Assembly (NCBI GenBank): GCA_029204225.1
Contig: CM055092.1
Coordinates: 38,821,800 to 38,885,799, forward strand
Source: Diphasiastrum complanatum
Lineage: Eukaryota > Streptophyta > Lycopodiopsida > Lycopodiales > Lycopodiaceae
Length of the DNA: 64,000 bases
Direction of reading: 5' to 3'
A program made the translations under genes and the position numbers. The notes under the pieces were generated by a model. That model did no database searches, was not told the origin of the DNA, and worked only from the letters and a program-made list of their open reading frames with translations. Positions 1 to 50,195 of the stretch are shown here, one piece after another. The first letter of the stretch is position 1; every line of letters starts with the position of its first letter.

Positions 1-2916
1 AATGAATGGATGTACGCAAAATTCACCATAGGCTATACCTGAGTTGCTCGCCCATCTCCCATAGATACTGATGTTGATCTGCCTCTCCTACATCCCATGT
101 AGGCTCAACTTCCCATGCTTGATGTTGCTAACTCTGATTTGACGAGTGTATAGGCCTCCCACCAAGGAGCCTATCTCACCAACACATCCATTATAGCACC
201 CAAGCCAAAGCGAATGCAAACTAGATCCACTATCGTGATGAATAACTCACCCATGATCCATAGCATGTCAGGTAGGATAGCTCCAGAATCCTGTACCCTG
301 TACCATCTGATCACCAAGTATCCATTAACCATTGATGGCTCTCCAAGAATCTGTCCACCTGTAGTGCAACTAGACTCCAACTAGATCTAACCAAAAACTG
401 CATCCTGCTTACCAAATAATGATGGATAAAGACAACATGTAATGCCAACCTGGAGATTACTATGTATATAACCATGCAGCTGACCTGATCACTCGCCAAA
501 GTATCAGCTGTTATTCTTTGAGCAACCATCTCCATCCATGTCGGCTCACAACCATGGGCATGTTGGATCCACATGACCCCGTAATGCTCTCCATGCCCTC
601 AGGATATGTACCACCACAGGTACACTCCATGCCACCTAACTCCAAGTAGGCTTGACCCATTCCTAGGTCACCACATGATGCTCCAGCTGAAGATCATCAT
701 TCATACATCAAATGACATATCATACCTGAGCAACTGTAGCATATCTCTGAGTGCCACCCCAATGGACTCGTCATCCACATACTATGCTCACCTGATGTCT
801 CTGATTCTGGTCACCATCCTGGTAGACAATCCAAACTCCAAAGCATCACCTGCTCCACAAGGCTCCTAGCATCTGCTCGCTCTCCCTGGCTATGTGCCAC
901 CCGACACCATGCCAACGCAAGCATATCCCTGAGTCGCCGCACACGGGATCAGGTTTATGGTTTTGAGTGACTCCCTCTAGGCTTATCCCTGATCTCACCA
1001 CCTGAGAATCTACACCATAGAAATTCCAACAACTGTGCCAAGCCTAGACTCCTGCAAATACAGCCAAATGCATGAAAGCTTTAAGTAGCTTATCCACGCC
1101 CGTGATGGTAGATGCCTCCCCATCGATGCCAATGTCCAAAACTGGCCCCTTGCTGTAATGTCATCTTGTACTCCCAAATGAACACACCATGAAGTCCTCG
1201 CCATCAGTGTCCCCTGTAGTAGATTGCTAGCAAAACACTCACCATAGTATTTTCCCTTCGATCACACTCTATGCGATCTCCATCAGCTCTCCAGCCTAGA
1301 GCTTGCTCTCAAAGCTTCCCGCTTTGCCCATTTGCATTTGCAGCTTCCTGATTCTATCATGAATCCCACTTCTAAGTCCTGTCCATGCCAATGACTCAAG
1401 TCCAATATGAAATAACTGCCCCCTGATGATCATCCCATGTCTTTTTTGCAGTGCTTTCCCTACCAGGTATCCCAATGCCATCCCTGATCACAAAGATCTG
1501 AGCATCTACCCTGTAGTGCCCACCTGTATTCCCCCAAGCTAGCTCCTAGCTGCTCCTGTGAATGGTTGCAAACCACTCCCTGAGAATACACTGAGATGTG
1601 AACTCCAAAGCCACCATCAAGTCCTTCACATGACTGTGCATGCCAGTATCCCTCCAAGTGAATCTGTGAGATCTTCCATGGCCCAAACCAAATGATCTTC
1701 ACCTTGCCATCACTGGAATCTGCAACTTTGATGCAATATTGATATGGCAAATTGACTTGACTTATCCAAACTGGCAATTGAAGTGTATCTCCGAGATGAC
1801 AAACCTAATACACTACTCCACAGCTACAATGACTTGATCAAAATTGACTTACTGACTACAAAACCGCAAAATCATCACACTCACCACTCGCCAAGAGCAT
1901 CCAAAGTGTGATTATCAACGCGTTCTTCATCCTCTGCATGTCCCACACATAGTTCATCCAATGCAAGTCCGCTATCTTGCCCAATGGCTTCCAATTGGCA
2001 CTACCTCGCACTTCCATCACCTATGACCGCCAAAATGTGTGTACCTCCAAGCTAGCCCGTATTTCCCTCCGAACAAGAAATTTTCAAGCTGCAGATGCGT
2101 ATGTCAATGCAGCTATCACATGACTCGACAATGCCACTGCCGATCATACCTGTGAGAGCGTTCCCCCAAAACGCCACTTGATGTTGGTTGGTTCAAACCC
2201 CAAGAGTTGAACTTGATCACAAGAATTTTTCACCTGTAACCAGCAGACCATGCCTACCTCTCACCTGTGATTGCTTGCCCGCTCAAAATTGTCACCAATG
2301 ATGAGTAGTCACACCGCCAAATTGCACTTCCGTTGCCAATACTAGCTTTCTCCACACAATTCCGCTGCTATTCGCTCCCATACTGCATTTATCACTTTCA
2401 AACACCCTATTACCCTATCAGGAGTAAGTAGTAATGATTCAAAAGTGATAATGCCTCATTGTACCGCCCTAGCAGGTTTCACCAGCCAAAAATTGCCCCG
2501 AATTTGGCCCTATGATACCCAGATAACGAATGTAGCCCATCACTAGGTCACCTGCACTCCGCTTGATAGAATGGTGACAAAAACACCCCAAAACATGTTT
2601 CTTCCAGTATGTGATGTTGCTCTGTCTGCTGGCTCTGAGCAGCCAGTTTCAAGGGTCATTTTGGCCCGAGGATGGCCAAAAAAGGTGCCTTCTAGCCTAG
2701 GATAGCGCTCTCCAAAATGCCTTGCAAAAAATGAGCTAGTTCTTCATAATGAAGATTTTTAATGAAGTGAAGTCCATTCTGGACTTCGGGTCTCTTCATT
2801 GAATTTCACATTGAAAATTTTTAATGAAGAGAAGGGTGCTTTTGACCTTCAGGCCCCTTCACTTGCCATCTAACGGCCGATCTCTAGTCGACTGTCCACA
2901 CCTCATCCCGAAGGTA
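1..2916 (+). repeat. Long unknown repeat A, copy 1 (left end cut by window)
   Basis: This stretch is nearly identical to 46361-49303 and to the inverted copy ending at 59814. The full unit, seen at 45440-49303, starts TGTTAGGATC and runs about 3.9 kb to the start of module B. No reading frame longer than about 105 codons is kept, and the frames in the three copies are interrupted. I recognise no protein motif, internal LTR pair or primer-binding site. The TG start would suit an LTR or a large non-autonomous retroelement, but that is only inference. Confidence 0.7.
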
Positions 2917-3600
2917 TGTGGTTGTAAAAGAAGATAAGATACTATGCTTCTCAAGTTAAGAAGAAAATAACATAAACTTGACAATTGAATTGACTATAAT
3001 GATAATCTTGTAATTCGATATTTGCTTTGATCTACTAGGACTAATTGACATTGTCCATTTTACTTTGCACAATGTTCACAATCAGTATTCACAATATTCA
3101 TGATCACTATTCACAAATGAAAATCTTAAAATCTAAGTTTCTCAGTTTCTCAGAATCTCAGTTTTTCAGAATCTCAATTTCTCAAAATCTCAGTTTCTCA
3201 ATTTCTCAAAATCTTAGTTTTTCAAAATTTTCGTTTCTCAGAATCTCAGTTTCTCAAGATCTTAGTTTTTCAGTTTCTCAGTTTCTTAGAATCTCAGTTT
3301 TTCAGTTTCTCAATATTCTCAATTACAATGATTACAAATCATCATTAAAGTAATCTTCAGGACGCATCTCTGAAAATTCATCATCCAATACGGAAGATAT
3401 TTCTTGCAAAAAGAAACACAATTGCAAAATTATAATTAGATAGAGATCAGTTCTTATTGGTGAAAACTTATTGATGATTTATATTTGTCACAAAACTCAA
3501 AATCAATTGCAAACTCAATAATCTCCATGTCATTTCTCAATAAAAATAAGCCATAACAAAAAGCATGACTTAGATCCTCTTTTCAAATCAAATAATACTC
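2917..3600 (+). repeat. Module B, left end (TGTGGTTGTAAAAG terminus) with minisatellite
   Basis: All four B copies share a sharp left border at TGTGGTTGTAAAAGAAG (2917, 32008, 49304, and inverted at 59813). The sequence in front is repeat A in three copies and Helitron DNA at 32008, so this is a true element or recombination edge. At about 3121-3330 lies a degenerate minisatellite built from TTTCTCAGAATCTCAG-like units of 10-25 bp. The short open frame across it is a by-product of the repeat. Homology among B copies continues rightward through the captured gene pieces. Confidence 0.7.
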
Positions 3601-3607
3601 CAACATC

Positions 3608-3785
3608 TCAGTCACCTATTTTGCGAGGATTGATTCTATGCTTATTTGGTTGAGGCTGAGCAGGGAAACCCTTAGCATCTGAAGCTGCCTGTTTAGGAAA
3701 ATTTGTTTGATGTCGCTTACCCTGTGTGTGGGCCAAATTTTTTCCTTCATTGTTGTGAAGAGTCAAGCACAACTTGCATTCATAA
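3608..3785 (-). pseudogene. SF3A2: Captured exon fragment of splicing factor SF3A2 (SAP62/PRP11)
   Basis: Read on the minus strand, the peptide contains YECKLCLTLHNNEG, AHTQGKRHQTN and PAQPQPNK. These are the hallmarks of the C2H2 (matrin-type) zinc finger of SF3A subunit 2, the U2 snRNP protein needed for prespliceosome assembly. The zinc ligands CxxC and HxxxxxH are all present. Only about 59 residues of a roughly 200+ residue plant protein remain. The exon opens right after a TGTAG acceptor and intron-like DNA, so the piece was copied from genomic DNA, not from mRNA. Further copies are at 50005-50182 (nearly whole) and 32524-32559 (a stub). It is a passenger fragment and unlikely to be functional. 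Identity is strong from motif recognition. Confidence 0.85.
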
Positions 3786-3790
3786 CTACA

Positions 3791-4564
3791 CATTTACCAA
3801 CCAGGCAAAAGCTCTATCTATCTTAATATGTGCATGCTCATGTGCACACACATGTAGCATAGCATTCACAAAAATGTCAATTCAGTGCTAGTTGTTTCAT
3901 GAGTTGGCAGAAAATCAGCGCTTCAAAGAAGTTGTACAACAACAAACCAATTAATATAGATATCATCAAATGAGTTTGTCAAAAGAATTAAAAATAGAAA
4001 TAGGATGTATCTTAATTAAGGTAGCAGATGGATTTGTAGGCCGAGAAGAATTCAATGCTTTGAACTATTAAGAAAATGATATAAAAAACGTCACATCAGA
4101 ATATAGTAGTCGTTTTCCTGATAATTGCATGGAGAAAGCAAGCCATTAACAAGATGCCTCTCGCGGGATCTCATGGTCACATATATCACTTCATTCATTT
4201 GCGCAATAAACAACATTAATACCACTTCACAATAAATACAATTTTTGCGTGACATTTATTGATCCTTGAAGCAATTGTTTTCTGCCTCTACCTAAGCTCA
4301 CAATAGTAGTCGTTGTATCTTGGAGTCAGCATCCATGTGAGAAGCAAGCTGTACAGTTGCTTTGTATGAATGAAATTTTTGTTCCATTACGCAATCTAGG
4401 TTATTATTGTCCATCTAGAAAAATCCACTAGAATTGACCTTAATGACAATGCAACTCCATGCAATAATGTTTTGAAATTTTACCGTATGGAGAGTTCTTG
4501 TGCGAATTATAAACCTTTCAACTACAGGCGGTAATTGATTTACGAATTTCTTGTTGTTGGTTGA
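3791..4564. other. Module B spacer without recognisable genes
   Basis: AT-rich sequence between the SF3A2 fragment and the next exon-like stretch, conserved in the copies at 32560-33035 and 50196-50960. The part next to the SF3A2 exon is probably its captured upstream intron. I see no coding or RNA feature. Confidence 0.5.
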
Positions 4565-4806
4565 ATTTCTTACAAAAATCCAAGCATAGAGGATATTCCC
4601 TATCTTGCATACGATCTAGCTGAGAAAGAAGTAATGAGCAGATTCGCATCCAACATTACATGCAACAAACTGGATGATTCAAATATTGTCACGAAACACG
4701 AGTGGGGACTTGACTTAGAACTTGCAAATCCTCATGCTTTCTTTAACTTCTTCACTAGCTAGCCTTGTGTCTCAGAAGGTTATGTGTTACCTACTGCTGT
4801 AACAGG
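4565..4806 (+). pseudogene. Unrecognised exon-like fragment on the opposite strand to SF3A2
   Basis: A plus-strand open stretch of about 65 codons includes PYLAYDLAEKEVMSRFAS, KHEWGLDLELANPHAFF and, after one TAG at 4760, PCVSEGYVLPTAVT. It stops at a plausible splice donor (ACAG|GTTTGTTAC). Codon structure is kept in the copy at 50961-51201, where differences are mostly point changes. The composition looks like a real protein exon, not chance. I cannot assign the family. It has no start codon and is probably a third host-gene fragment captured in module B. Confidence 0.45.
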
Positions 4807-4936
4807 TTTGTTACTTTAGATATTGCACTGCCTCAACAAAAACATTGAATAATCTTTATCCAGTCTAATTTGCGAATGTAAGGGATATAAAGAATTTCAA
4901 AAAGCTACCAAAAATCTCATAAGGAAGAAGGGTAAA

Positions 4937-5326
4937 TCAAGTCTGCATAGTACCTAGGTTGTCAACATTGAATCTAATAGCTGTCCATCCACCAACAGGG
5001 ACTCCAATCATATTTATTTCAAGAAGATCCACAAGATTGAATTTTTCTTCGTCTGATGCCTTGCAACCAAAACCACCTCTAACTACAAAGAAATTGTATC
5101 CATGCAAGTGAAAAAGATGATTCTCCGTGACAAGAATACTGATGTCTTGGAAAACAATTTGAATAATATTGCTAAAAGGAATGACCTTAGCTTTTGTACC
5201 CTCTACGAGCTGAAGATTTATAAGCGGATGGCTGGTAAAGTTGAATGTAAAAGGTGGCTTGCTCGGAAAGTCAATTGTGAATACTCCTGGAATTTCGAAA
5301 AAGTAAGCTTGCAGAAGAGCTATTGA
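4937..5326 (-). pseudogene. Captured laccase exon fragment (C-terminal cupredoxin domain)
   Basis: The minus-strand peptide runs ALLQAYFF, GVFTIDFPSKPPFTFNF, GTKAKVIPFSN, VFQD, HLFHLHGYNFFVV, KFNLVDLLEIN, GVPVGGWTAIRF. This is the third cupredoxin domain of plant laccases, multicopper oxidases that oxidise monolignols in the cell wall. The HLHG copper-ligand motif is intact. Homology stops after DNLG at a GTACTATG donor, a position where plant laccase genes have an intron, so genomic DNA was captured. About 130 of a typical 550-580 residues remain. The N-terminal residues of the longer open frame are antisense to Copia RNase H and are not laccase. Copies lie at 51333-51725 and, truncated, at 44359-44605. 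Confidence 0.85.
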
Positions 5327-5331
5327 ATTTC

Positions 5332-5605
5332 CAGGGCCGAGGAGATTCCATGCATTTATTGTGATGATCAAGCATCACAACAACTTGCAACCAATCCTAT
5401 CTTCCATGCTCGAACTAAGCATATCGAGATTGCACACCATATTGTAAGGGAGAAGGTGCAAGCCAAGGAGATCAAGCTTCTTCATGTATCATGATTCAAA
5501 TGTGTTGCTGATATTTTGATTGAACTGTTGCCAAATGACTCATTTATGAAGTTGAGATATGCACTTGGTGTTGTAGATATATTTATTCTAGATTTGCCAA
5601 ACTAG
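5332..5605 (+). pseudogene. Copia RNase H C-terminal fragment
   Basis: The plus frame reads IYCDDQASQQLATNPIFHAR, TKHIEIAHHIVREKV, then VADILIE, ending DLPN-stop. This is the 3' end of a Ty1/Copia pol (RNase H, CDNQ..A..NP.FH.RTKHI). One in-frame TGA interrupts it here and is absent from the copy at 51730-52000. A purine tract, GAGGAGGAA, and the LTR follow directly, as expected at the 3' end of a retrotransposon. It abuts the laccase fragment head to head, with no intervening pol sequence. Confidence 0.85.
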
Positions 5606-5619
5606 ATTTTGAGGAGGAA

Positions 5620-6378
5620 TGTTGAAATTGTCAAATTCTAGCTTTTGACCTATGATTATTTGTACATAAATTGATACCGCACGTGTGGAGCCTGTTCCCA
5701 CCTGTGGATGATAGTATTAAATGCATTTATTTTTAGTTAGATAGAAAAAGTTTTGACTAACACTAGTGAAATGCTAGTCAAGTAGGATTCTCATGATCAA
5801 GCATTCTCATCTGAATAGTGACTGGTTCCCATGTGTGAGAGGTTGTTCCCACGTGTGTACATATCTGGAAAATGTCACTAGCTTATCATGGGAGTTTATT
5901 TTGTAAGTTCCTAAAAGTTACAAAAATTACTTCAAATCAAGGAAAATCATGGTGAGGCAATGGCATCAAGTTAGAAATCAAAGAGGTGAGTGCTTATCTA
6001 GTAGTGATTAATGGATCTGAAGTGATGTGGCATTTCCCACAACATGTTGAATCAACATATCAAGTTGAATTGTACTTGATCTATATATAGATCATTATTG
6101 TGAATATTAAATTTGATAAGAGATCTTGATCTTGTGGCAAATCCATGTTATTTTCACTATTTGTGTTGTGATCTTTTGCATTGAATGCTATCCATAGGTA
6201 ATTTACTTCACTCTCTGTCCACTTTCTGTACAGTGATTGGCTTTGACATCTGTGAGGCTGCCCATCCATTACTTTGATCAATTTACATCACGATCTTACT
6301 AGTTAAGTGCATAAAATTGATCTAAATCAAGATCTAAACATTAGATTTTTGGATGATCAATCTAACTAGCATCCAACA
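5620..6378 (+). repeat. Copia LTR, family 1 (about 759 bp)
   Basis: The LTR starts TGTTGAAATTGTC right after the polypurine tract and ends GCATCCAACA, giving a 5-bp terminal inverted repeat TGTTG/CAACA. Further copies are at 33189-33948, 44872-45439 (interrupted by repeat A), 52018-52776 and 63147-63713 (inverted, interrupted). It carries CACGTGTG-type motifs within TTCCCACGTGTG. No primer-binding site follows, so it is a 3' LTR. Edges are supported by several copies. Confidence 0.85.
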
Positions 6379-7441
6379 CCTCTTGTAAATCGATTGTAGA
6401 TCCATTCTTGGTCCTAAATTTAGAATTTTTCAACAACGCCCAAATGTGAGAGCACCATAGAATTGCCATCTTCTTCTATAGATGCAATTTGTGCATGTGG
6501 AGGAAAAATTGCATGTCATTTCAGACCTTGTTTTTTTATTTTTTTCAAAGAATTTTAGAATTCTCTACAGTCATAAAAGCCCTTCAATTCCATCTTTAAC
6601 AAAATCTTACTAAACTATGTAAATTTGGATTGGGTGGATACAAATCACCAGTAACTATCCAAAGATCAATATTTCATCTATTTTCTAACCTCCAAGAGTT
6701 CATGTCATGTCTATACCCATGCAACCATGGTTGTAAGATATTATAGATCTTAGTTTACATGCATATGATATTTGGTTGCCATTATCATCAAGAATCAACA
6801 CAAATCATATGGAAAATTCTGAAGCAATCCAATGACTAGATGTTTATCTTATGAAAAGTGAAGAGTGAAGTACACATGTTTGATGTTTGAAAAGTGAAAT
6901 AGAAATGTTTAATGTTTGAAAAGTAAAATAATCATGTTTGGTGTTTTGGAAAAGTGAAGGTGAAATAGATGTGTTTGAAGCCTACAATTGAAGAAATTTA
7001 ATGATACCTTTAGGTTTATGTCATTCCTATAGTTCCATTTGAGTTAAAAGTCAACAAGGTACCCTTGGTTCTATTTTTGCCCTACAAAGTAATCATGTAC
7101 TCCAATAGAAATGGGGCTACATTCAACTCTTAACTCTTGAGCACCCTATGTGGTAACCCAAGGTAAAGGTGTCACATGGGACTGATTAGCAAAAAAACTA
7201 TTATGTAGGAAAGAAAAGGGCCCTCTCTGAATCCGAAAAGTGCCCTAACGTGACTAGTTAGACTCCTATTTATGTTTTTCTAAGGCCCAAAATTAGGTCT
7301 TCTAGAACCTTCTATCTCAAGCCACTTGTCCTTTCATGATGAATTCTAGAAGTGGCTTACTCTCCAAGTTACTGAACAATTCTAGCTATTCCCCTCTTTC
7401 TCACACTTATAATTGTGTGTGTGTGCGTATGTGTGCGCGCG

Positions 7442-7444
<3 letters not shown>
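6379..7444. other. Non-coding spacer with short tandem repeat
   Basis: No gene is visible. At about 6868-6985 there are three to four imperfect units of about 29-35 bp built on ATGTTTGATGTTTGAAAAGTG, also found at about 53266-53371. The whole spacer is repeated at 52777-53842 with few changes. Confidence 0.5.
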
Positions 7445-7503
<59 letters not shown>

Positions 7504-7520
7504 AGAGAGAGGGAGGGAGT
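7445..7520. repeat. (GA)n microsatellite
   Basis: Almost pure GA dinucleotides, preceded by a short (GT)n tract. The matching tract in the second segment copy is at 53843-53895. Open frames through it are artefacts. Confidence 0.97.
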
Positions 7521-7636
7521 AGTAGAAACCAACAGAGTCTGAAACTGTTATTGAGAATCTCAAATGAGTACAAATGATGCCCATTTATTCTTGGGGAGGC
7601 CCTTGTCTCATTCATCCTATTGGCTACTTGATAGTG

Positions 7637-7639
<3 letters not shown>

Positions 7640-7707
<68 letters not shown>
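7640..7707. repeat. (GA)n microsatellite, second tract
   Basis: A second GA tract about 130 bp downstream of the first. The matching tract at 54018-54160 is about twice as long, showing slippage since duplication. Confidence 0.97.
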
Positions 7708-8460: not shown

Positions 8461-8760
8461 TACTTCACACCCGACATTGCACAACCGTCAATCCTTCCAC
8501 CCTAGTCAATTGGCCCGAAGGCGAGAAAGAGAGACTTTTGCACCTAATTGCCTGCCATTTGGGGCAAAGTAATGGTACGGGATGAGAAGACTCAAAAGAT
8601 GCAAAAGATGCAAAAAGAAAATTCTTCACATCCCACATTCCACAACCTTAGTCAATCCTTCCACCTTAGTCAATTGGCCCGAAGGCGAGAAGGGGAGACT
8701 TTTGCACCTAATTGCCTGCCATTGGGGGCAAGGATGAGAAGAGGACTTGAAATTGTAAGC
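8461..8760. repeat. Direct duplication in the MTPSL copy 1 upstream region
   Basis: Two versions of one block (CTTCACAYCCSACATTSCACAA through GGCCCGAAGGCGAGAA and TTTTGCACCTAATTGCCTGC) stand side by side. The first matches the single block of copy 2 (34091-34215), the second that of copy 3 (54871-54985). This suggests unequal exchange between promoters. Confidence 0.75.
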
Positions 8761-9340
8761 TAAGCTTGGTGGGTCCTCCCATGAAGCCCATTCTAATAAG
8801 AGTATGAAACATGTGTTGCACCTGCTCATGAAATCAAAGTTTGGACTCGTGGGTCACAATCACCTTTCCGGGCTTCTCACGATCCATCCCCTTCGCATTT
8901 GCTACAACCATTGCTACCACAGGCTTCTCCTCTTTCAGATGAGCCTGGAGGAAGAATTGTTCCGTGTGCAAAACAGCTGCTGCTGGAACAGATCAGGACA
9001 ACGTGTGCTACGTGATCAGTGCTGCAGATTGAAGAAGTTAACTGGTGGAGGCGCGGCGGGGACAATTTTGGATGACCAGTAGTTCACAGGTCATGAAAGC
9101 TTCAAGATACACGTGAAAGTTACGAAAAGACTCACAATATACAAACCTGTTGTTGGGGACAACGGTTGGGTTTTTTTTGCCTCATGGGAACTTGGAATGG
9201 GTGATTGAGAATCAGAAGCCAATGGCAAGATTGGCCCATCAGCAGCAGATTTGGGTCGTGCGTGAACCGCGTGCAATTTGCCGTGTGTCAGGGGCATTAG
9301 GCTTGTAGAAGAGTGACCATAGGCACATATGGGCTTAGCT

Positions 9341-9349
9341 CTATAAAAG
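9341..9349 (+). promoter_or_regulatory. TATA box of MTPSL copy 1
   Basis: CTATAAAAG lies in a block strictly conserved upstream of all three MTPSL copies (34815-34823 and 55587-55595). It is a canonical plant TATA element. Transcription would start about 30 bp downstream, leaving a long leader of roughly 950 bp before the first coding ATG. Confidence 0.7.
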
Positions 9350-9374
9350 ATGCTTGCAATAGACTACTCTTGTA

Positions 9375-10331
9375 AGACTATCAGCTGAAGTGTCTCAAGA
9401 GCCGGGAGAGGTGCAGAACGGCCTTTGCTCAGAGCACAGCACACTTCTCAATTACATTTGTCATCGACCATCTTCTAAGTTGTCACCGCTTTGCGAATTT
9501 ATTTTGCCTTTTTTAAATGCGAGCTACTTTTATTTGAGCCGTTTAGATGCCGACACCTGAATAGTATTGAGAAGAATTCTGTGATAATAAGATATCTGGT
9601 GTCTTGAGATATTTACAACATTAGCTCTTTTGTGTCTCAACTTTCAAGTTTCACTCTGTGGCGCAAACAGAGGTGCTGCTTCTCTCTCTCTGAGCTATTG
9701 CAAATACATTCAATTTTTCAGCTGGCATCAGAATATGATATATCTCTTAGAACATCATCTTAGCTCTCTATGTTAGAAAGCATCAATAATATTCCTAAAT
9801 CAGCGCTTTTACGTCTAATGAAATGAGACAAGTTATACAGCAACTCTAAGACGGGAAAGCCAGGCTGTCTTGAATTCCTTGATGATATGTATATGGTTTC
9901 GACAATAGCATAACATGTTATTTTCTCTCGTGCAGAAACTAGAATGAAGTTGCAGAAAAGCATTACTGAATCGATGGAACTGAAAGAAGATATAGCTAAT
10001 TATCATGGGCACAACAAGGTATAACGGATTTAAGTGAATTATCAGATACACGATTTCCAAATCGATGCTTGTGTGAGTGTTAATGGTTGATAGCTCAAGT
10101 ACAAGGATTGGTTTGCTTGTTTGTAGCCTAGATTGAACTGTAATATATTCAAAGCTTTGTAATCGCGGCGAATTTTGCAGACTTAGGGTATGTCACAGGC
10201 GGTGCTTGAAGCACCGAGTTATAAGCCTAGCCACGCTCACCACTTGGCGATTTGTACTGCTGTCTATTCTTGCAGCCAATGTATCTTTGTGTATAAGAGC
10301 ATAACATTAGAGCGTAGTCGCGCATGCTATC
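9375..10331 (+). other. Probable long 5' leader of MTPSL copy 1
   Basis: The stretch lies between the TATA box and the start codon and is conserved in all copies, apart from small indels. It has no long open frame. Pyrimidine-rich acceptor-like sites (TTTTTCAG near 9720, TTCTTGCAG near 10275) make an intron in the 5' UTR plausible but unproven. Confidence 0.4.
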
Positions 10332-11965
10332 ATGCCCTATCAATATAATCTTTGGCATATGAATTCACTACAGGACAGTGCAGGACAAGATATAAGTGAT
10401 GCTGGAATGACAATTATGAACTCCTTCACGATTCCAGAATTTATTCCACCCTACCCCGTGAGAGTCCACTCTATGGAGGCGGAAACTTGCAAAACAATTC
10501 GCGAATGGCTTCTCTATCATTCTGTGGACAAGGTCTTCGACCCTGACAAGTTTACAAAACTACTGCATAGTCCAGAATTTGCAGCTCGAATGTTTCCAGA
10601 CACTTCAGCAGAGAGGTTGGAATTGTTCTCTAAGTTCTTGATAGTTACGTATGTGGTTGACGAGATAATGGACGACACTGAAATTGAAAGACCTTGGGAG
10701 ACGACCGTTTCTCTTGCACTGGAAATTCACAGAGTGATAACATCAACTTTTCCTGAAATTCAATCAGTAACGGAGATTTTAGATACTTTTTCAACTGATT
10801 GGCGTGAAACTATTGAAAATCTCTTCCCTGACGAGCCATACAACGTCAAAGATAGCCATCCTAATCCCTACGAAAGTAAGCCCAACGACTTGTTTTCTAT
10901 CTAGTGTTCTTTAGGAGAATTTCCGAGAAGATGCACATGTAAGCAGGCACATATATCTGCCATCCTTGGTTGCGTCAAGTTGACTGATCGTGTTGATTTT
11001 TCTGATTCTGACAGTTGACGCTGGGAAACTATCCCCAATAGGCTCCTGTTTTCGTGACTTTTGGGGTGCAGCCGTAGCATCGATGCACCGCGAGTCTTGC
11101 CTTCGACTAGCCCGGTTTTAGCAAAAGTTCCTGATAGCCAGTCTCATTCAGATCCAAAACAGAGAAAACGGCGTCATTCCGTCCCTAAATGAATATGTCC
11201 TGATTCGGAGAGACGCTGGAGCAAGCGCATGCTGTCTGGTACGTAAGCCATTGCTGACTATTCATTGGATTTTACGTATATGTTTCATGAATTTACTCAA
11301 GATACTCAGTAGTAACCATGGGATTCTATAATCCGAGGATCGGTGCTGTCAGCCTATTTCCTAAAATTGTCAAACTTCTCAATCAAACAGTATCTTCTAG
11401 GTTCTGAAAAGGCTATTTCTTAGCTTGATGTGTTGTCTTATCTATCATGATTAACCTTAATGCTTGGCTTCAGATATTCGTAGACTTTAACGATTGCGTA
11501 CTTATACCGGAAGAAATCTTCAGCAGTCCTCAAATGCAAACAATGGTGAATATATTCCGTGACATACTATCATGGCACAACGATCTTTGGTCTTTCAAAA
11601 AGGTAAAGCTTAAAAAATAATCATCACGCTTGATTCCTGCACCCACTGATTGACAATTACTCGGTGTTGAAATCTGAATGAGCCGCCATGTGCGTATGCA
11701 GGAATGCCAGGTCAAAGGAGATGTTCACAACCTTGTGTTTCTGCTCAGCCATTATCTTCCGTTTTCATACCAAAGAGCTGCGCAGGTTGTAACCGAAATG
11801 TTGCGTGCTCAATGCAGCGAGTTGGAGGCTGTGGCAGAGGAGCTGCTCAAGGCGACGACTGCAGTGGAGGAACATCGACATACAGTTTGTAGATACATCG
11901 AAGCGAGCAGGCGCTGCATTGGAGCAACTCATGCATGGCACAACAGGAGTCTGCTCTTCAAGTGA
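10332..11965 (+). pseudogene. Microbial-type terpene synthase-like gene, copy 1 (one premature stop)
   Basis: Four exons join in frame: 10332-10875, 11015-11238, 11474-11602 and 11702-11965, all with GT-AG introns, giving about 386 codons, a normal MTPSL length. Exon 1 holds the Asp-rich Mg-binding motif in VVDEIMDDTE (residues about 113-122). Exons 3 and 4 join to NDLWSFKKE, a perfect NDxxSxxKE metal motif. Such class I enzymes ionise prenyl diphosphates to mono- or sesquiterpenes, usually in the cytosol. An in-frame TAG in exon 2 (GGTTTTAGC, where copies 2 and 3 have GGTTCTATC, Tyr) truncates the protein before the second metal motif. All else looks intact, so the loss may be recent or allelic. 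The start is the first ATG after an upstream in-frame stop. Family assignment is by motif and architecture; the product is unknown. Confidence 0.82.
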
Positions 11966-12730
11966 ACATCAATTTCAGCATCATAATAAAAATAAGTATG
12001 ATTTACGATCCAGACTAAGGTCACTGGACAACTAATTGTTAGTTGCTATATTTCACTCATCCAAGTAACAATGTTACAGTAGAGCATTGTTTAGTAGATA
12101 TTGGTATTGCAGCTTCATATAATGTGCTCGTGTACTTTACATGTACGCAACAAGGTGATATGTATCACAGAGGGAGACCCTGCATTGCAAGATTGCAAGG
12201 AGTATCTATTATTTAGGAAGAAATTTTGAAATGAGAAGGTAAAATTGATGAGCAAATAAAAGAAACAACATTGTGGTTTTATACCACAAACGCCTTGCCA
12301 TGTGATAATAATATAAATCCTAAAATTTTATGATTTGGATAAGGCATTTTAGATATTGGTGTGAGAAATTTTGAAATGAAAAGACAAAATTGATGAACAA
12401 ATAAAAGTTAAGAAAAAACTATATTGCTTAAAAGAAGACATGTCTTGTTTGAGGTTTGTATGGATTTTTTATATTGGCTCGTGAGAGGCTCTTTGAGGTT
12501 TAGTGGCTTGTAATATGGTTCTATTAACTCAACATTTGGCCTGTTAAGAAGTTTTGACACACTAAGAGATTGTATTCAGCTCAAGATTTAACATTTTGCA
12601 CTAAGAGATTGTAATAAACTCAAGATTTACAACTTTTCACTTAAAAAACTCAAATTATTGCCTCTGAAGAGCCTCCTTCATAATAATACATAATAATACG
12701 ATGGCTTTTGAGAGGTTCTATAAATCCCCC
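11966..12730. other. 3' flank of MTPSL copy 1, non-coding
   Basis: Contains AATAAA-like signals just after the stop (TAATAAAAATAAG near 11985). Conserved in copies 2 and 3 up to their respective interruptions at 38097 and 58600. A segment around 12263-12330 (ATACCACAAACGCCTTGCCATG) also resembles 30750-30825, so it includes a dispersed repeat. No gene is seen. Confidence 0.5.
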
Positions 12731-19586: not shown

Positions 19587-22500
19587 CTAATGTTGACAAA
19601 AAACGTTGTAAATCAGCTTTTCTCTGTTGATGACGAGTGGAGGATGATGTTTTTTCAAGTAATCCAAGTCGTTCTTTCGTAGATGATTGGTCATTGTTAA
19701 TTCAAAATTAAATGTCAAAACATCTACATCCTGTAGATTCAAATCGTCGACTCTTGGTTGATTTTTTGGCAATCTCTTTCTTTTGCCCTTTGGATCTACT
19801 TGCAACATTTCGAGTTCGTACCTTCCCAAAAAAGCATTTGTTGAAGTGGTGCGCAACCAATGGACTTGTAGTACTTTTGTTTGATTGCTATTTTGAATAA
19901 AACCAAGTACTTTGGCAATCCAAAATGGATGTCCTTCATTGTTTTCTGAAGCTAGAAGTGCAACAAGGCTTTCAATTTGGATTTCATTCAAATCACGACA
20001 CCATTTCATTTTTGCAGCTTTTACACTTTGCCTATTCTTCCTTGAACCCACATTAATTTCACGTTCCTGATCTTGCACAAGCTGCATGAAATCATTATCT
20101 CGAGGAAGATCTGAAGGTTCGAAAGTCGTAGTTGATGTTCCTAATTTATGAGGCCAATGAAATTCGTTAGTTGTTGATGTATGTTCGAGCATTAGAGGAG
20201 TTTTGATTTCCAAAAACACCCTTTAAGAATTTGTGGAAGATGCTGTTTTTATTATTAAAATATTATAGCACTAATACTTTTGACTTGCCATAACTTTTTA
20301 ATCGTAGTCAGAAGTATATCATCTAACATTCATTGGAAAGCCCTTGTTGAGCGCTTTTCAATGCACCAACCTTCACTAAATTCGGACTTACCACTAAAAA
20401 GTTATCCCATTTTTAGTATGGAATCAAAAAGTTACGTTACGTAGAATTCAAATTTGAGTGTTTTGATTGGTTCATGTGTAAGAAACATTTGAGAAAAAAT
20501 ATAAAAAGAATCTTTACAAAGGGTCTTTTTTGGATTTAGAACTCCTCTAATGATTGAGCAAACTGATTGTTTGTTCCTCGAAAAAGTCCATCCACCAATG
20601 TTGATCAAACTCATCAAAAAAATGATAAGCTGCTTGAATACTTGATTCCAAAAAATTTAACGAGGCAAATGGATCAATCTGATGATGTTCTCTTTGCGCC
20701 TTTTGTTCTTCTAGCAAGGACTTCAAGGGAGACAACACAACAATCTTGATTTGAGTCGATGCAATGTTAAGCAAAAATCGAACTCCTTCAAGAGGTAGCC
20801 ACGAAATTGAATTTGAAAATAGTTTGCTCCATAATAATATTATGTCTGATTCGTTACATTTGATTTTAAACTGGTGCTGAAAGCTAATATTATTAATATT
20901 AGCTACGCATCGCTCTGTTTCATTGGACGCCTTAGCGTAATCACAAAAATCATATGTGTGTTTGATTAATGACACGTTTGGCTTTGGCACATACGATTCC
21001 TCAACAATGCTCTGAAGCACTGATAATGAAAATGCTTTCTTGCATCTCAACCTCTTAGAAAAGCAACTAAACATTTGATCAATTTGATTGTGGGTATGTC
21101 CTACCAACAAAAATCCTATTTTTACTTTTTTGAAAAAACATTTCTCCACTAGCATAGACAAGTATGCCAAAACAGTTTGATTTTTATATTCCCTAGTAGT
21201 GTTGTCAAGCTGCAAATAAAGCATTTCTGGAAGATTTTCACCGAATTCGCAAATTATCTTATGTACAATGGTGATCATCAAATTTGGATTATTTCGAACA
21301 TTGGGATCATTAAAAAAGACCTTGGACTCCAAAGTGCCATGAAACACAAGTGCTCCAACGAGATGAACCTGAATAAAATCTACCTTGTTCAAATTTTTGG
21401 GCACTCTGACAAAATGAGACAACATTGTTTTCTTCTGATCCATGCCACCAATAACAAGTCCCAGATATTTTTGTGGACATTCCAAACATTTCTTTCGATG
21501 CTTGGCCAACTTTTGTCTTTCAACCGTTTCTTGATCTATGTGCAATTGAAGAGCTTTTGTAGCATCCACTGAAAATACAATGATTCACTTATTTAATAAA
21601 ATAAAGATCATACCATAATGGTGCTCAAAAACACTACAACATAAGTTTTTTCAAAACAGAAAGTATTAAAATGAATTACAAATTTGATTAATATTTACCT
21701 TTATCGTCATTGGTGTTTGCAAGCTATTTTGCATACTTTAATAACTCGCAAGTGGAGCATATTGTCATTCATGATTTTTTGGGAATCTTTACTAGTCCAA
21801 AATCTCTTTTCCAAATTCTAAGAAAATATGAGTAACTCAAATAGTGAACATTTTTTGTTTTTGCAAACTCTTTGTACATAAAAAATATTTCTAATTTTGT
21901 AAATTTATATGACAAGTGAAAATATAAGGAATTAGGCAATTTTTCTCCGTGCACATCTATGAGATGCTTTAGCCAAGCAGTTGTATTTGAAACATCTGGA
22001 GAAACAGTTTAACCCTGTAAGGATCCCGTGTGAGTCAGTACAGATCTGATTTTGGCTGAGAAATTTCAAAAATTTGTACAATTTGACTTACACACCCAAT
22101 TAATGTTGGGTCTTTTTGAAGTCGTGAAGGAATTCGTTGAAGCCGTGAGTTTTCAATTGCGTGAACTGCTTTGTAAGTTTTGTGACAAACCTCCAAAGCA
22201 TTTAAAAAATACAAAAATGAATTTTTGTCCGGCCTCACTGTTGTACACAAATAGTAATTTCTCTTATCCTTATTTCGTAAAAAGAAGTTTGATCTTAATT
22301 CTTCAATTTCTCTGATACTCAGCTTTTGAAAACAACAGGATGAGCAGCAAATAATATTCCGTACCTTTCGAATTTTAGATTTTGTAATCAATTGTTTTTG
22401 ACAATTCGTTAAATCATGTGAGTATCTCAAGTCTCTCTTGTATTTTTCTTTTTGTTTGGAGTTTGATCTATAAATTGAACCTATGACACTAGTAGGTGCT

Positions 22501-24010: not shown

Positions 24011-24680
24011 ATGAAAAGCATGGAAATATGAGTGGCAAAGAAAAAAAATATTCAAGACGAGAGTAAAAAAAGGCAAGAAATATTATTGGCACAAGGGGAT
24101 GGGATGTACACTACATCATACTTAGGTACAATGGTTGAAGGACAATAATGAGAACACAATTGATGATGGTGGGTAGCATCTACCAAGTAGTTGAAACAAT
24201 GCCATCCATCGCATTCATAGTGTACCTTACTACAATCAAATCTAAAACAACCGCAATCTTAAATTCAATAGGCACCTAAGACAATGATAAATTGATGAGT
24301 TTTTTTTGCTAATTGAAGACTACAGATCTATTGTGATTCTCATCAATCCTCTTGTTATGTTCAATTTAATGTTTAAAGTTTAAATTTCGTAGTATATGTG
24401 CCTTGTACCATGTGATGGATATTCTTTCAAGAAGGGTGTAGTGAGCATGTAAACCTTAGATTTTGAACACCACCATTGCTAGTTCATCTCAAGCTTCAAG
24501 ATAGGCACTAAATAAATTAGAAGATGCCTATTGCATACAATTGTGAATTTCAAGTTATGTTTCTTGTGAGGGGCAGGCGGGTAATAACTAAGACAACCTT
24601 CAACTAGAAGACTTTTATTGCAAATGTACTTAATCATTGAGACTTAATGCAAGTGCTAGCTTATGTTTTGTATTTTGGAG

Positions 24681-25337
24681 TGTGAGAAATTGGCAAAAAT
24701 CTAGCTTGGTATTTTTTATGATAGAAGTTTGTAAGTGAATCTCACATGTGTGAAAGATGTTCCCACGTGTGGAGAATTGTAAAGTAAATCAAAATGTTTG
24801 ATATAGGGGTCTCATATAATTTAATAGTCAAGCATTTAGGTGTAGGATGTTGATAGGGTCAAATTTGGCATAGATGGCAAATTATCCATTTCCACTTGTA
24901 ATGCCACTATTGAGCCAAAAAAGAGTAGGAGGCCAAACTCATGCCAATAAGAGTGTAGACAAGTGTAATGCTTTTGTTTGATGAAGTCTAAGAGGTCCAA
25001 TAGGATTTAGAGGTGGAACCATGAGTGGTCCAATAGAATTTGAGGTTTGCTTGAAAATGGTCCAATAGAATTTAGAGGTGCATGGATCAATGGTCCAATA
25101 GGATTAAGAGGTGGCAAAGTGTGGTCCAATCATAGTTAAGCAGGTCAATTACTTTTGGAACACTTCCCATATGTGTGAGTGAGAGTTGGAAATGATTGAA
25201 TGCATAAAGTAATGTGTTTTTGCCATAGGATCTAAGATTGATCTTGAATCTCAATCTAGTCTTGATCTTGGTGCATCTACACACCTTAGGAGATCACAAG
25301 TACATGTTGTGCACAATCCACACGTATGAAATCAACA
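24681..25337 (+). repeat. 5' LTR of Copia family 2
   Basis: Starts TGTGAGAAATTGGC and ends GAAATCAACA. Length is 657 bp. It includes TTCCCACGTGTGG, a motif also present in the family 1 LTR. It lacks an insertion of about 165 bp found in the 3' LTR. Confidence 0.92.
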
Positions 25338-25350
25338 TGGTATCAGAGCC
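25338..25350 (+). other. Copia primer-binding site
   Basis: TGGTATCAGAGCC directly follows the 5' LTR. It is complementary to the 3' end of initiator tRNA-Met, the standard plant Copia primer. Confidence 0.95.
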
Positions 25351-26087
25351 TACCTAAGACTACCATGCATTTTGATCCATTTAAGTGAAAACTATTCAAA
25401 AATCTTGAGCTAGAAATTGTCAAAATCCATTTTCCTAGCTATCTTTTTTAATTTTGGATCAAAAGAGATCAATAGGGCATTGATTGGTTCTGACCTGGTA
25501 TTGTACGGATTCAGGTGCTCAGACATGTGTGAGGAACTTCCAATTTCAGTTTGGGAGTTCTCTTTCATGTTTGAACCAAAAATCTTGCTAGATAGCTTGT
25601 TTTGAAGCTATTTTTGTCTAGTTTCTGATGCAATCAGTTTCATTCCATTTGGTTGTGCCAATTAAAAGTTATAATCTTTTGAAGAGGGTTAGGTAGGGCA
25701 CCTAGTGGAAACATTTGGTTTGGTCAAGAGATTGCTTGTTTGATCCAAAATCACAGTTGAATGCTTAGCAATCTCCTCTGTATGTGATCTAGGAACTGTT
25801 TTGAGATCTTAGCCATTTTGTTTCAAAGCAATATCATTGTATTTGAGTCAAATTTGGTTTCTTAGTGTATTTCACACGTGCTAAGAGTGTTTGATCCTAA
25901 CGTTGCCCATACTCCATTTGATGTGAAGTTGATCTAGTTTTGGAGAGATTGAGATAGATAGTGAGAATCATCTCACAGTTTGTTGCAAGATCTTGCATAG
26001 GAGATGGTAGCACACCATTATTGGATCCTATAGGAGAGAGAAACAACATTTTTTTTCATCACTTTTATTTATCTCCACTTTACATGA

Positions 26088-28060
26088 CTTCAGTGAGTTC
26101 ATACTTGTTGCAACCAAGTGAGAGATTGTCTACTTCCAATTATTCAATATGGAAGTTGAGGATGGAGTCCATGTTGATACTCCAAGATGTGATGGACATT
26201 GTACTTGGGATTGAGGAGGAGCCTCAAGTCCTTCAAGAAGTACAAGAATACAAGAAGAGAGCTAGGATGGCTCTCCATTACATTAAGATGAATGCCTCTA
26301 ATGAGATATTGAGGTGAGACTGGTGATTGTTCTACATCCAAGGAAGCTTGGGATTGTCTCAAGTCCATCTGTGAGGCTAAGAACACCTCTAGGATCCTCA
26401 CTCTTAGAAATCAAATCTTCCAAACTAGTCAAAAGAGTGATGAGAGTGCATCTAATTATGTTTTGAGAGTCAAGGATATTCATAGGGAGCTTGCATGTAT
26501 TGGTGACTCAATCAATCAAAGTGAGCTAGTCCAAGTCATTCTCAATAACTTGAGAGATGAATATGACAGCCTTGTCCAATCCTATGCCATTAAGGAGGAG
26601 CTACCAAGTTTGGAGGCCTTTCAAAGTGTGATTATTTCTGAAGAATCAAGACAAGAGCACAAACTCTTGAGGATGGACAAGCTATCACTCAATCATGATG
26701 ATGGCAAAGTTCTATTTCCCAAGCACAAAGAGGGGAGTAAAAAGCAGCACCATCACTTCTCTAATGACAAAGATAAAGACCAAGATGGAGAGGAGGAGGA
26801 GGATACCTCTCATGCTTCTACTTCAAATCTCAAGAAGAAGAAGATCAAGTGCTTTTATTGTGGCAAGAAAGGCCATTATGCCACCAATTGCTTAACGAAG
26901 AAGAATCAACTCAATCAAGCCAGCATCACCAATGAGAAAGAAGACTATACTGCAAGTGATGGAGAAGGCTCTCTTATGACATCAAGCTTCTCCTCTTCCA
27001 CCTTCAACAAGGATGACTCATGGTATATTGATCGTGGAGCATCTTCACATATGTGTGGCTCCAAGCACTTTTTTCATCTATTATGCCTGACGATGGAGGC
27101 AAGAAGACCATATACATTGCAAGTAAGCATGAGTGCAATATTAAAGGAGTAGGGATTATTCCCTTGAAACTTGCATCTTCTAAAGGTCTCTTTCTCAACA
27201 ATGCTCCTTTTGTCCCAAAGCTTACAAAGAACATCTTAAGTGTTGGCCAACTTCTTGATAGTGACTTTGATGTCAATTTCAATATTGACAATTGTGTGAT
27301 CAAGAAGGATGGTGAGATCCTTGCATATGGATCAAGATTTGAAGGCATCTACAAATTGGATCCAAGTGAGAGTGCAAAATCTCTTGATTTTTCTTATATG
27401 TCCAATATTTCAAAGGAGGATGATCACACAAGATGCACATATCTTCTCTCTTCAAGTATTATGGTGTATGATTATTCCTTATTATTCAAAGCATATGTTG
27501 AGAAGAAATTATCATTGAAGATCAACGCTTTGAGGAGTATTGGAGCTCTTGAAGGAATAGCACCATATGAAGTTTTATTCAAGATGAAGCCTAAGGTTGA
27601 TCACCTTAGTGAACTTGGTAGTGCTTGCTTTGCACATATTCCCTTGGAAACAAGGAAGAAGGATGATCCAAGCTCATGGATCATGATTGGATACTCATCC
27701 ATCAAGGAGGCCTTTAGTGTCTTTACACTCTCTATTTCAAAAGTGATTGTGAATAGAGATGTTATGTTGCATGAAGATTCAATATTGGAAGTGGCCGAGA
27801 TCAAGGTTTCTCAAGAAGCATCACAAGTTATCTTTTTTGAAGGTATTCAAGTTATGATGGGGCCAAGGCGTGAGAAGTTTCTTCTTCATATAATTTCAAG
27901 AAGATCTTCAAGATGCATGGTCGAGTCTTTATGGCTCACTTTACATGGCAAAGAGGGGCATCTTTCATGTTGTTTGTACTACAACACATTCATATATGCT
28001 TCTCTTCCTTTGCTTGAAATGCTATCTTGCTTCATTGAATTTTTTGGATCTCAAAGTTGA
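26088..28060 (+). pseudogene. Copia gag-protease-integrase polyprotein, frameshifted and deleted
   Basis: Gag begins near 26088 (LQPSERLSTSNYSIWKLRME). A frame break at about 26315 precedes DIHRELACIGDSINQSELV. The CCHC knuckle is CFYCGKKGHYATNC (about 26850-26895). The protease motif is changed to WYIDRGASSHM, with Arg in place of Ser next to the catalytic Asp. After GVGIIPLKLASSKG and ILSVGQLLDS comes a deletion that removes the HxLGHP region and most of the integrase core, resuming at CTYLLSSSIMVYDYSLLFKA. The integrase C-terminal part (PLETRKKDDPS, IGYSSIKEAFSVF) is present. 28079-28573 is an open frame I do not recognise. Confidence 0.88.
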
Positions 28061-28782
28061 AGAAAAGCTATACTAGTTTTGTATGATGCTTATGGTATGG
28101 ACATGTTTCTTGTCATTATTAACTTAGATATGTTTCCAATACTTTTTGAAAGCAAGATATTGTATTGTCAAAAGTATGCTCTTGGTTCTAGTAAGAACAA
28201 GATTGAGCTTGGTACTCACTTTTTTGAAAATCATGTTTTCACATGTTTTGAGGCAAATTGTAAACTCATCTTGAGATTAAGTGAAGCATCCAAAGTGGAC
28301 ACTTACATCCTTGAGAGAGTAACTAGCCTAAAAAAGATCAAGGTAGTCTTTGATATCAAGATTAGATCCATCATGGATATAGTTCATTGTATGTGGACTA
28401 GTCAAGCTAGAAAGCATAATCTTGATAATAATCTTGTTTCACATCTTATGATCTTGATCTCCATGATCCTTATGAGGCTTGGAAGCCTCATATTTCTTTA
28501 TTTATGGTGCATTTGTCATGCAACTGGAACTTTCAAAGCAAAGATCCTCATCAAGCATGGAGGAAGCCCATGATCATAGTGGCATATTGGTGGAGCACTC
28601 TTCAAAGGCATTGGCAAGAGATCTCTACCAAAGAGATCTTATCATGGATATGGTGAGGGTGCTACTATGATGGATCCCTTGGCTGATCTTCACTTCTTCT
28701 GCATACCAAAGGATCCACTCAAAAAGATTTACTAACTTCTCAAGTGATCTAGTACCTTTCCAAGCTATTTTTCGAGGAGGAG

Positions 28783-29605
28783 TGTGAGAAATTGGCAAAA
28801 ATCTAGCTTGGTATTTTTTATGATAGAAGTTTGTAAGTGAATCTCACATGTGTGGAGGATGTTCCCACATGTGGAGAATTGTAAAGTAAATCAAAATGTT
28901 TGATATAGGGGTCTCATAGAATTTCATAGTCAAGCATTTAGGTGTAGGATGTTGATAGGGTCAAATTTGGCATAGATGGCAAATTATCCATTTCCACTTG
29001 TAATGCCACTATTGAGCCAAAAAATAGTAGGAGGCCAGACTCATGCCAATTAGAGTGTAGACAAGTGTAATGCTTTTCTTTGATGAAGTTTAAGAGTTCT
29101 AATAGGATTTAGAGGTGGAACCATGAGTGGTCCAATAGAATTTGAGGTTTGCTTGAAAATGGTCCAATAGAATTTAGAGGTGCATGGATCAATAATCCAA
29201 TAGGATTAAGAGGTGGCAAAGTGTGGTCCAATCATAGTTAAGCATAGTGGTAGCTCATGGACCTACTAGTATCACTGTACTCCTCATTTGGATCTAATTG
29301 ATTTTGAGATTGAGTGGATTTTGAGTGTAAGTGATTTCCTAGCTTTCTCTCTCTACCCGAGAGCTATTGATGATTTTCTCTCTCTACTCGAGGAGATCAG
29401 CTTGTTTTTACTTAGATTACTTTTGGAACACTTCCCATATGCGTGAGTGAGAGTTGGAAGTGATTGAATGCATGTAGTAGTGTGTTTTTGCCATAGGATC
29501 TAAGATTGATCTTGAATCTCAATCTAGTCTTGATCTTGGTGCATCTACACACCTTAGGAGATCACAAGTACATGTTGTGGACAATCCACACGTGTGAAAT
29601 CAACA
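28783..29605 (+). repeat. 3' LTR of Copia family 2 with an internal insertion
   Basis: Same ends as the 5' LTR but 823 bp long. An extra ~165 bp at about 29247-29411 (from ATAGTGGTAGCTCATGGACC to TTTTTACTTAG) is missing from the 5' LTR. The insert has CTCTCTCTAC direct repeats. Confidence 0.9.
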
Positions 29606-30850
29606 AGAGGCACCTCCAAAGGCAAAATGTTCATGTAAATTCAGGACAATAATTTTTTGTAACCCTTGTTAGCACAATTCTAACGTGGATATCCAATAAA
29701 AGGTTTTCACACAACTTACAACGCATGAAATTTTGAAGGAATGTGCATATGGGTAAAAGCATGGTTTGGTGGTACAACATGGACTTTCAAGGACACTACC
29801 TTTTTTGGGTAGAAATGCACTTTTGTATTATTATACACTATTTTTAACTAATACATTTGAAAGCACTTTTGTCATAACTTTGCAATTGTATGTCGAAAGT
29901 ATGTCATGTAACATATCATTGGAAAGAATTTGTCAAGCGCTTCCTAACGCATCATACTCCGCTAAAATTGGAATTACCACTAAAAAATTAATGTGGACTC
30001 AAATTTTTTTTAATGTGGACTCAAAAAATTATGATTAATAAAATCCCCATACTTTTGACTTGCCATAACTTTTTAACCGTAGCTCGGAAGTATGTCATCT
30101 AATGATAATTGGAAAGCGCTTTCTAATGCACTAAACTCTGCTAAAATTGGACTTACCACTAAAAAGTTATGTCATTTTTAATGTGGACTCAATACAATTT
30201 ATTAGTAATAAAATCCCCAAAATTTGAAATGTACTACTAAAAGGTACAATGAAAAATGGATTCTTTTTTTGTACCACCACTCAATGCTTTTAGCCATATG
30301 TGGGTGGACAACCAATAACAACCTTCCACAAGGTCCATAGCTTGTTATTGACTAATGATGGATGTTTAAATGCACATATTGTACTATGGAATGGGCCGGT
30401 CGGGCACAGGCCATAATGCCCGGTTCAGCTTTCCAAAAATTTTCAGTCTTAGCCCCTCCGGAAGGGAATGGGCCGGGCACAAGCCATTATGCCTAGCCCA
30501 TTCCCTTCCGAATTGTTGTGTAATGGATTGTTGGACCTTTTTTAGACCAATCCGACATTGCCATGTGGCAAGCGCAGGCAGAATCAAAACTAAAAAAATT
30601 AAAACAATCTGACACTGTCACGTGGCAAGTGCGGGCCTGATGCCTGACACATAGGCAAAATCAGCACAAATAAAAAAAGTTTATATGACTATTTTACTTT
30701 TTAATGAGACAAAAAAATGGAGAGAATAGTCACCAACAATCTATTACGTAAGAAAACAAAAACGATGTGGTATCGTACCACAAAGGCCTTGCCATGTCAT
30801 AATAACATGAATCCTAAAATTTTAGGAGTATTTTAAAGTGTTTTTTATAT
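29606..30850. other. Non-coding repeat-rich spacer
   Basis: Contains degenerate copies of the CTTGCCATAACTTTTTAACC repeat (about 29866-30185) and a 15-bp perfect inverted repeat, CGGAAGGGAATGGGC/GCCCATTCCCTTCCG (30459-30473 and 30496-30510). A segment at 30750-30825 resembles the MTPSL 3' flank. No protein-coding gene is recognised. Confidence 0.55.
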
Positions 30851-30852
30851 GC

Positions 30853-31985: not shown

Positions 31986-32007
31986 TTGTGCAAATATTGC
32001 TGGTCAT

Positions 32008-33174: not shown

Positions 33175-33188
33175 ATTTTGAGGAGGAA

Positions 33189-34814: not shown

Positions 34815-34823
34815 CTATAAAAG
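34815..34823 (+). promoter_or_regulatory. TATA box of MTPSL copy 2
   Basis: CTATAAAAG in the same conserved context as copy 1. The upstream block at 34091-34215 is present once. Deletion has brought an LTR to about 870 bp upstream. Confidence 0.65.
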
Positions 34824-36787: not shown

Positions 36788-36818
36788 ATTTGTTCATCAA
36801 TTTTGTCTTTTCATTTCA
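36788..36818 (-). other. 31-nt templated inverted filler
   Basis: ATTTGTTCATCAATTTTGTC and the next 11 bases are the exact reverse complement of part of the MTPSL 3' flank (about 37884-37914 here, 12378-12408 in copy 1). The filler replaces the exon 2 end, its donor and about 100 bp of intron. It looks like a repair scar copied from a nearby template. Confidence 0.85.
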
Positions 36819-42165: not shown

Positions 42166-42179
42166 ACTGCTTGAAACTC

Positions 42180-44605: not shown

Positions 44606-44609
44606 CATT

Positions 44610-50182: not shown

Positions 50183-50195
50183 CTACACATTTACC

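Follow-up and report, generated by a model that had tools for sequence, protein, structure and literature searches.

The capture of host gene fragments by Helitrons is best known from maize, and the order of the events is seldom visible. Canonical Helitrons (Helitron1) start with TC, end with CTRR, carry a hairpin 10–12 bp before that end and insert between A and T. Gene capture by long terminal repeat (LTR) elements leaves fragments, usually intronless, between two LTRs with a primer-binding site. For the maize Helitrons, capture in several steps during rolling-circle copying or its repair is proposed in the accessible part of one account (PMC3288121). Here we analyze a window of 64,000 nucleotides of Diphasiastrum complanatum (C1:38821800–38885799, the whole stretch studied), whose interval 2917–5605 combines pieces of an SF3A2 gene and of a laccase gene with Helitron and Copia sequence. 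It is very probable that a Helitron captured three host-locus pieces, and that the joining to Copia and the segmental duplication of the block came later. Copies within the window were traced by self-BLAST, and the 1.74-Gb genome was searched; the first fetch comprised 18 stretches, 15 of the Helitron family (with two near-identical pairs) and three SF3A2 loci. Two complete copies (2917–5619, copy 1; 49304–52017, copy 2) and one with three internal deletions (32008–33188, copy 3) were found. In copy 3, some 13 codons of the SF3A2 exon and some 50 bp of laccase are left; hence the initial annotation was right to count at least three copies of the module in 64 kb, but only two of them contain both exons.

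The SF3A2 piece (3527–4153, minus strand) consists of a zinc-finger exon (3616–3785) with an intron on each side. The peptide 3611–3793(-) matched “Splicing factor 3A subunit 2” chains in the PDB (5e-21), and Pfam zf-met was detected at 0.0056, under the curated cut-off. An SF3A2 gene on C23 (locus L010) aligned with the whole piece, exon and both introns, at 85% identity over 627 sites. The exon peptides of this gene were taken from the locus itself, and its C-terminal part lies outside the stretch read; six SF3A2 exon peptides occur there in order. Among the solved chains, exon 3740–3889 of the C23 locus corresponds to SF3A2 residues 7–52 (2e-15), the zinc-finger exon of the window to residues 53–108, and the C23 exons 9673–9738 and 9861–9935 to residues 163–182 (1.9e-5) and 183–206 (0.0011), respectively; exon 7422–7589 matched Pfam SF3A2 at 3.2e-5 with 24.5 bits, under the cut-off of 27. 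The K80 distance of the SF3A2 part of copy 1 was 0.018 to copy 2, 0.092 to a related locus on C12 and 0.165 to the C23 gene.

The laccase piece, also on the minus strand, includes an intron (4835–4953) and an exon with its donor site (4954–5325); the frame 4940–5374(-) matched laccase (3.8e-31) and Cu-oxidase_2 in Pfam (2.9e-18). A laccase gene on C4 (L047; its N-terminal part is outside the stretch read) has Cu-oxidase and Cu-oxidase_2 in a single open frame, plus the last exon, and its exon and intron are 88% identical to window 4835–5325. The distal part of the same intron lies at 4346–4464 of the window: 4346–4449 corresponds to L047 753–856 at 81% identity, and by eye the likeness extends to about 4464. 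Window and gene have corresponding splice donors (GACAACCTAG|GTACTATG in the window, GACAACCCAG|GTACTATG in the C4 gene), and the K80 distance of the laccase part of copy 1 was 0.123 to the C4 gene and 0.085 to a chimera on C13 (165 sites). Thus, both minus-strand exons were correctly recognized as lying beside intron sequence, and the comparison with same-genome genes proposed for them bore this out: splice sites and intron sequence are kept in both pieces and are common to the genes on C23 and C4. These matching exons and introns indicate that the two pieces are captured genomic fragments.

The third fragment (4467–4834) lies within the laccase intron. Its orientation, taken as plus, was inferred from an open reading frame (ORF) at 4565–4759, and its sequence is 82% identical to a locus at C3:33.75 Mb (L049), with further relatives at C3:33.64 Mb and on C201; Pfam and PDB searches returned no match giving its gene identity. 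The coding of the plus strand had been described as one unidentified exon; coding is indeed present, but it is composed of the ORF of the third fragment and a piece of Copia RNase H at about 5346–5605.

To the left of the SF3A2 piece, with the junction at 3526/3527, there is the 5′ region of a Helitron family in minus orientation (2917–3526), identified by its family matches and containing a minisatellite (3124–3324) and an exon-like sequence with an acceptor (3335–3402). All 15 fetched family loci match this region, whole or partly. The acceptor is common to L012, L014, L017, and L018, and the exon-like sequence is shared by the family loci, which rules it out as a further captured gene. The family is dispersed across the genome: the DNA search with 2917–3917 gave at least 50 matches (the best 40 of 667 candidates were scored), many of them in an array on C1, and the protein search gave at least 118 (the best 117 of 891 candidates were scored). 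The minus-strand gene of the C13 chimera (L012) contains DUF6570 (1.6e-7, above the curated cut-off), a domain with no mention in the literature searched. Over 299 columns it is 33% identical to L051, a DUF6570 relative from the same genome, of which 6 kb were read and in which DUF6570 runs on into Helitron_like_N (PF14214; 4.9e-21). L012 keeps the first 79 amino acids of Helitron_like_N, with 59% identity to L051, and then breaks off. Coding for Rep (Helitron_like_N), the mark of Helitrons in the broad sense, is therefore present in L051 and, as its start, in L012. The frame of L051 ends before any helicase within the 6 kb read, no search aimed at a helicase having been made. A putative OTU stretch had no Pfam match, the Helitron protein pieces had no PDB match, and no endonuclease was seen in the fetched sequence, which does not cover the endonuclease region.

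The 3′ end of the family, in minus orientation, consists of a 20-bp palindrome, a hairpin (TGTGGTA-CAA-TACCACA, 7-bp stem) and TCGTTCTTGTT, beyond which T-rich sequence is often seen. Measured from the assumed end, the distances are 55 bp for the palindrome and 11 bp for the hairpin. DNA folding of the hairpin in three sequences gave z values of −4.25, −4.42, and −3.01, the last being that of copy 3, where this end occupies 30748–30850(-) and is 96% identical to L012 19–122. With up to three mismatches, no copy of the palindrome was found at a 5′ end among 22 fetched loci and the window; the matches stand at 3′ ends, except in L015/L016, where one with three mismatches is located far from the element, and L022 2604–2628 is a candidate for a partial 5′ palindrome. 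The 5′ terminus (TC end) was not found in the fetched loci. From these features of coding and 3′ end, the carrier is classified as a Helitron.

Related arrangements on other chromosomes bear on the mobility of this element and on the order of events. On C13, L012 comprises the Helitron gene, counterparts of window 4063–4708 (91%) and 5161–5325 (92%), and then further laccase exon sequence absent from the window; in L012 and in the 4 kb left of it (L050), the only window matches of at least 60 bp are to Helitron and cargo. A second C13 locus was ruled out as an independent insertion, being a segmental duplicate with flanks of 97–99% identity, and the part of it that was read is without the chimera. 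The C12 locus (L009) shares 3527–4556 with the window at 90% identity, a span that takes in laccase intron and the first part of the third fragment; this rules the locus out as a plain SF3A2 donor. On C21 (L011), an SF3A2 piece at 4553–5266 lies between Helitron 3′ ends at ~4007 and ~5610. A laccase fragment at C1:87.7 Mb (L048), about 89% identical to window 4835–5325, has a deletion in common with the C13 chimera. Mobility is evidenced mainly by the C13 copy, and these partly overlapping structures suggest that stepwise capture is likely.

A mosaic produced by double-strand-break repair, with filler DNA placed inside an old Helitron insertion, would account for some of these observations: the laccase intron lost few bases where the third fragment, a small insertion, entered it, little microhomology is seen by eye at the junctions, and the deletions differ between copies. 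The third fragment may indeed derive from repair. However, an SF3A2 piece occurs at C21 between Helitron 3′ ends and again in the C12 and C1 chimeras, and SF3A2 flank sequence is present in the C13 chimera; capture by a mobile lineage fits this better than repair at a single site, and we consider such a mosaic unlikely as an explanation of the whole.

Toward its right end, the interval contains a truncated Copia element instead of captured cargo. After a stretch of about 20 bp (5326–5345), the 3′ part of RNase H and a polypurine-like tract (5346–5619, plus strand) lie outside the capture, followed by the 3′ LTR (TGTTGAAA...TTTCAACA; 5620–6435, plus strand). The RNase H of another Copia stretch, 38413–38727(-), is 54% identical to about 5346–5605 over 46 amino acids. 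A canonical 5′ TC end at the laccase–Copia junction was considered and dropped, because by eye the laccase coding runs to within about 20 bp of it. Template switching by this Copia retrotransposon could also have brought the fragments together: those of copy 2 lie between a truncated LTR (44872–45427) and a full one (52018–52833), and RNase H, polypurine-like tract and LTR follow laccase in copies 1 and 2 and in a copy starting at 44356, where the LTR is truncated. Against this, introns are kept, the two host exons lie on the strand opposite to that of the LTR element, no match to the window Copia is seen at the C13 and C12 loci, and copy 3 has the Helitron gene where the 5′ part of the LTR element would be expected; the TGGTATC primer-binding motif is absent from 44301–46500, where truncation may have removed it. 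Copia was accordingly rejected as the carrier, since introns are present and a chimera without Copia exists on C13, and this origin appears highly improbable. Two more Copia-type stretches with LTR-like direct repeats were noticed at 24677–29605 and ~38100–43550.

The left boundary had been read as a transposon terminus, TGTGGTTGTAAAAG. In copies 1 and 2 and in an inverted copy, an unrelated sequence (module A) stands to its left. In copy 3, a Helitron gene remnant of the DUF6570 region (30849–32007, minus strand; 83% to L012, aligned to 1062–1886 and 1885–2566) adjoins the counterpart of 2917 directly. The exact motif TGTGGTTGTAA is present in eight of the 15 family loci, equivalent to seven independent ones as L015 and L016 are near-identical, and Helitron gene sequence lies directly to its left in all eight; seven have a 30-base left flank much like that of copy 3, and in the eighth (L023) the gene sequence is further left, as if after a small deletion. 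Since the Helitron gene continues leftward in copy 3 and in 8/8 loci, 2917 is not a terminus and that part of the initial annotation falls. A Pack-type transposon with TGTGGTTGTAAAAG as terminal inverted repeat, to which the many DNA-search matches beginning at query base 1 could point, retains next to no probability, as this common start marks the module A joint, homology continues beyond it in every exact-motif locus, and 2917, where a terminal inverted repeat with a target-site duplication would be expected, is no terminus. Of the earlier proposal of a Helitron or Pack-type element rather than an LTR element, the Helitron half stands, supported by the genes with the same introns and by the start of Helitron_like_N.

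Within the window, the copies have a common right flank, the Copia LTR followed by 8593–12588, 54839–58600, and 34090–38098 for copies 1, 2, and 3, respectively, and are therefore segmental duplicates and not separate insertions; their number is thus uninformative on transposition. In self-BLAST, 1–7706 and 46358–54085 are 96% identical. Further partial copies were traced: a DUF6570-bearing remnant of the Helitron gene, joined to laccase (43546–44359, minus strand; 89–92% to L012; DUF6570 at 0.044 alone and 2.2e-4 for the joined pieces, both under the curated cut-off); a laccase part with RNase H (44356–44871) and the truncated LTR, up to module A (44356–45427); an inverted copy of the module start (59218–59813, minus strand); and an inverted laccase part with RNase H (64000–63714) and truncated LTR starting at 63713 (63158–64000, minus strand), cut by the window end. 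In an RNase H–LTR alignment of five copies with 20 gapless two-state informative sites, 12 grouped copies 1 and 2, four grouped the copy at 44775 with the inverted copy, and four were in conflict.

Several neighboring features were also recorded. The three right-flank regions (8593–12588, 34090–38098, 54839–58600) are copies of one region with a terpene-synthase-like ORF (10314–10904, plus strand), which had weak PDB matches (best E 0.036, caryolanol synthase) and no Pfam match; downstream in each lies the same Helitron 3′ end fragment (12255, 37765, and 58498). Module A (1–2916, 45428–49303, 63157–59814; ~3.9 kb) has no recognized coding and joins the truncated LTR at one side and the Helitron 5′ region at the other. 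Where copy 2 gives way to the inverted copy, the sequence from 58601 onward begins with CACTACAAGAA and contains TCCGACG-like motifs, which we take to resemble the end of a CACTA element; an exact TTCTTGTAGTG end was not present up to 60000. A frame at 20550–21584(-) contains DUF7869 (E 1e-46) and probably encodes another transposon protein. The array at C1:38.76–38.91 Mb has a counterpart ~4 Mb off (C1:34.55–34.75 Mb), in which several of the module copies have their equivalents.

Taken together, a non-autonomous Helitron would have acquired the SF3A2 exon with introns and the laccase exon with an intron next to its 5′ region, and a further fragment would have been set inside the laccase intron. 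Capture would have proceeded in steps, through rolling-circle replication or its repair, with the C21 and C12 loci as traces of other steps. One descendant in the window would then have lost part of the laccase piece and joined a Copia 3′ end beside the terpene-synthase-like ORF, after which segmental duplication would have amplified the whole block and some copies would have received module A in place of the Helitron gene; both the joint with Copia and module A have the appearance of later rearrangements. Several points weigh against this scheme. The most complete of the family copies read, L012, lacks the catalytic part of Rep and the helicase, so that a helper would be needed, and none was identified. 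The assumed 3′ end reads TCGTTCTTGTT instead of CTRR, the acceptor of copy 1 is GCAAG and not GCAG, and the third fragment is apparently opposite in orientation to the SF3A2 and laccase pieces. The C12 locus contains 39 bp of SF3A2 beyond the Helitron junction of the window, so not all of the junctions formed together; it is tied to a Helitron end by a 20-bp match only, and C12 and C21 may represent separate captures. Because the second C13 locus arose by segmental duplication, the case for movement depends on comparing C13 with C1 and on C12, and an empty insertion site could not be shown.

Most likely, the captured exons have no function. A spliced chimeric transcript, from the SF3A2 donor to the Helitron acceptor, is possible because this donor lies upstream of the acceptor of the family itself. 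The SF3A2 and laccase pieces have the same orientation, with the Helitron gene adjoining, and an ORF at 44302–44649(-) reads through laccase and on into the N-terminal protein of the Helitron; adjoining matches at C1:34.737 Mb suggest that the two are joined there too. A broader proposal, to which we give little but some credence, is that a Helentron- or Helitron2-like plant lineage captures host pieces stepwise, in sense and upstream of its own Rep gene, with exons that can be spliced or fused to the coding of the element; the frame 44302–44649 would then be one predicted fusion product.

Helitron gene capture is a known kind of event, and it is the documentation that is unusually good here: pieces of three unrelated loci are kept with introns, and related gene copies and half-way copies are still present elsewhere in the genome. 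With the gene copies and the C13, C12, and C21 structures in one genome, models of stepwise capture become testable. Among the papers listed by the literature searches, whose coverage excludes most subscription journals, there was no account of an SF3A2–laccase Helitron chimera.

Compared with canonical Helitron1, the hairpin distance of 11 bp from the assumed end agrees and the end sequence, TCGTTCTTGTT, differs. Helitron2 likewise has a hairpin 3′ end other than CTRR, but its asymmetric terminal inverted repeat and 5′ hairpin, as given in the accessible part of its description, were not found here (PMC5148889). Helentrons, with HINE/DINE-1 as their non-autonomous partners, in the part of the account at hand likewise have a palindrome near the 3′ end, internal tandem repeats and often a T-rich 3′ flank; the palindromic sub-terminal 3′ repeat by which Helentrons are recognized is present here, whereas no matching 5′ palindrome was found and Pfam did not detect the OTU domain (PMC4067079). 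The element is therefore assigned to Helitrons in the broad sense, finer placement being withheld as the 5′ features were not found, and its 3′ end resembles Helentron/Helitron2 more than the canonical form. The 3′ ends of the gene-capturing Helitrons of maize carry CTAG, whereas here the hairpin is followed by TCGTTCTTGTT and the coding remnant contains DUF6570; in other respects, as far as the accessible part of that account extends, they are alike, since maize elements also combine fragments from different chromosomes, show internal sequence loss, and share only some fragments among related elements, which points to stepwise capture, as here (PMC3288121).

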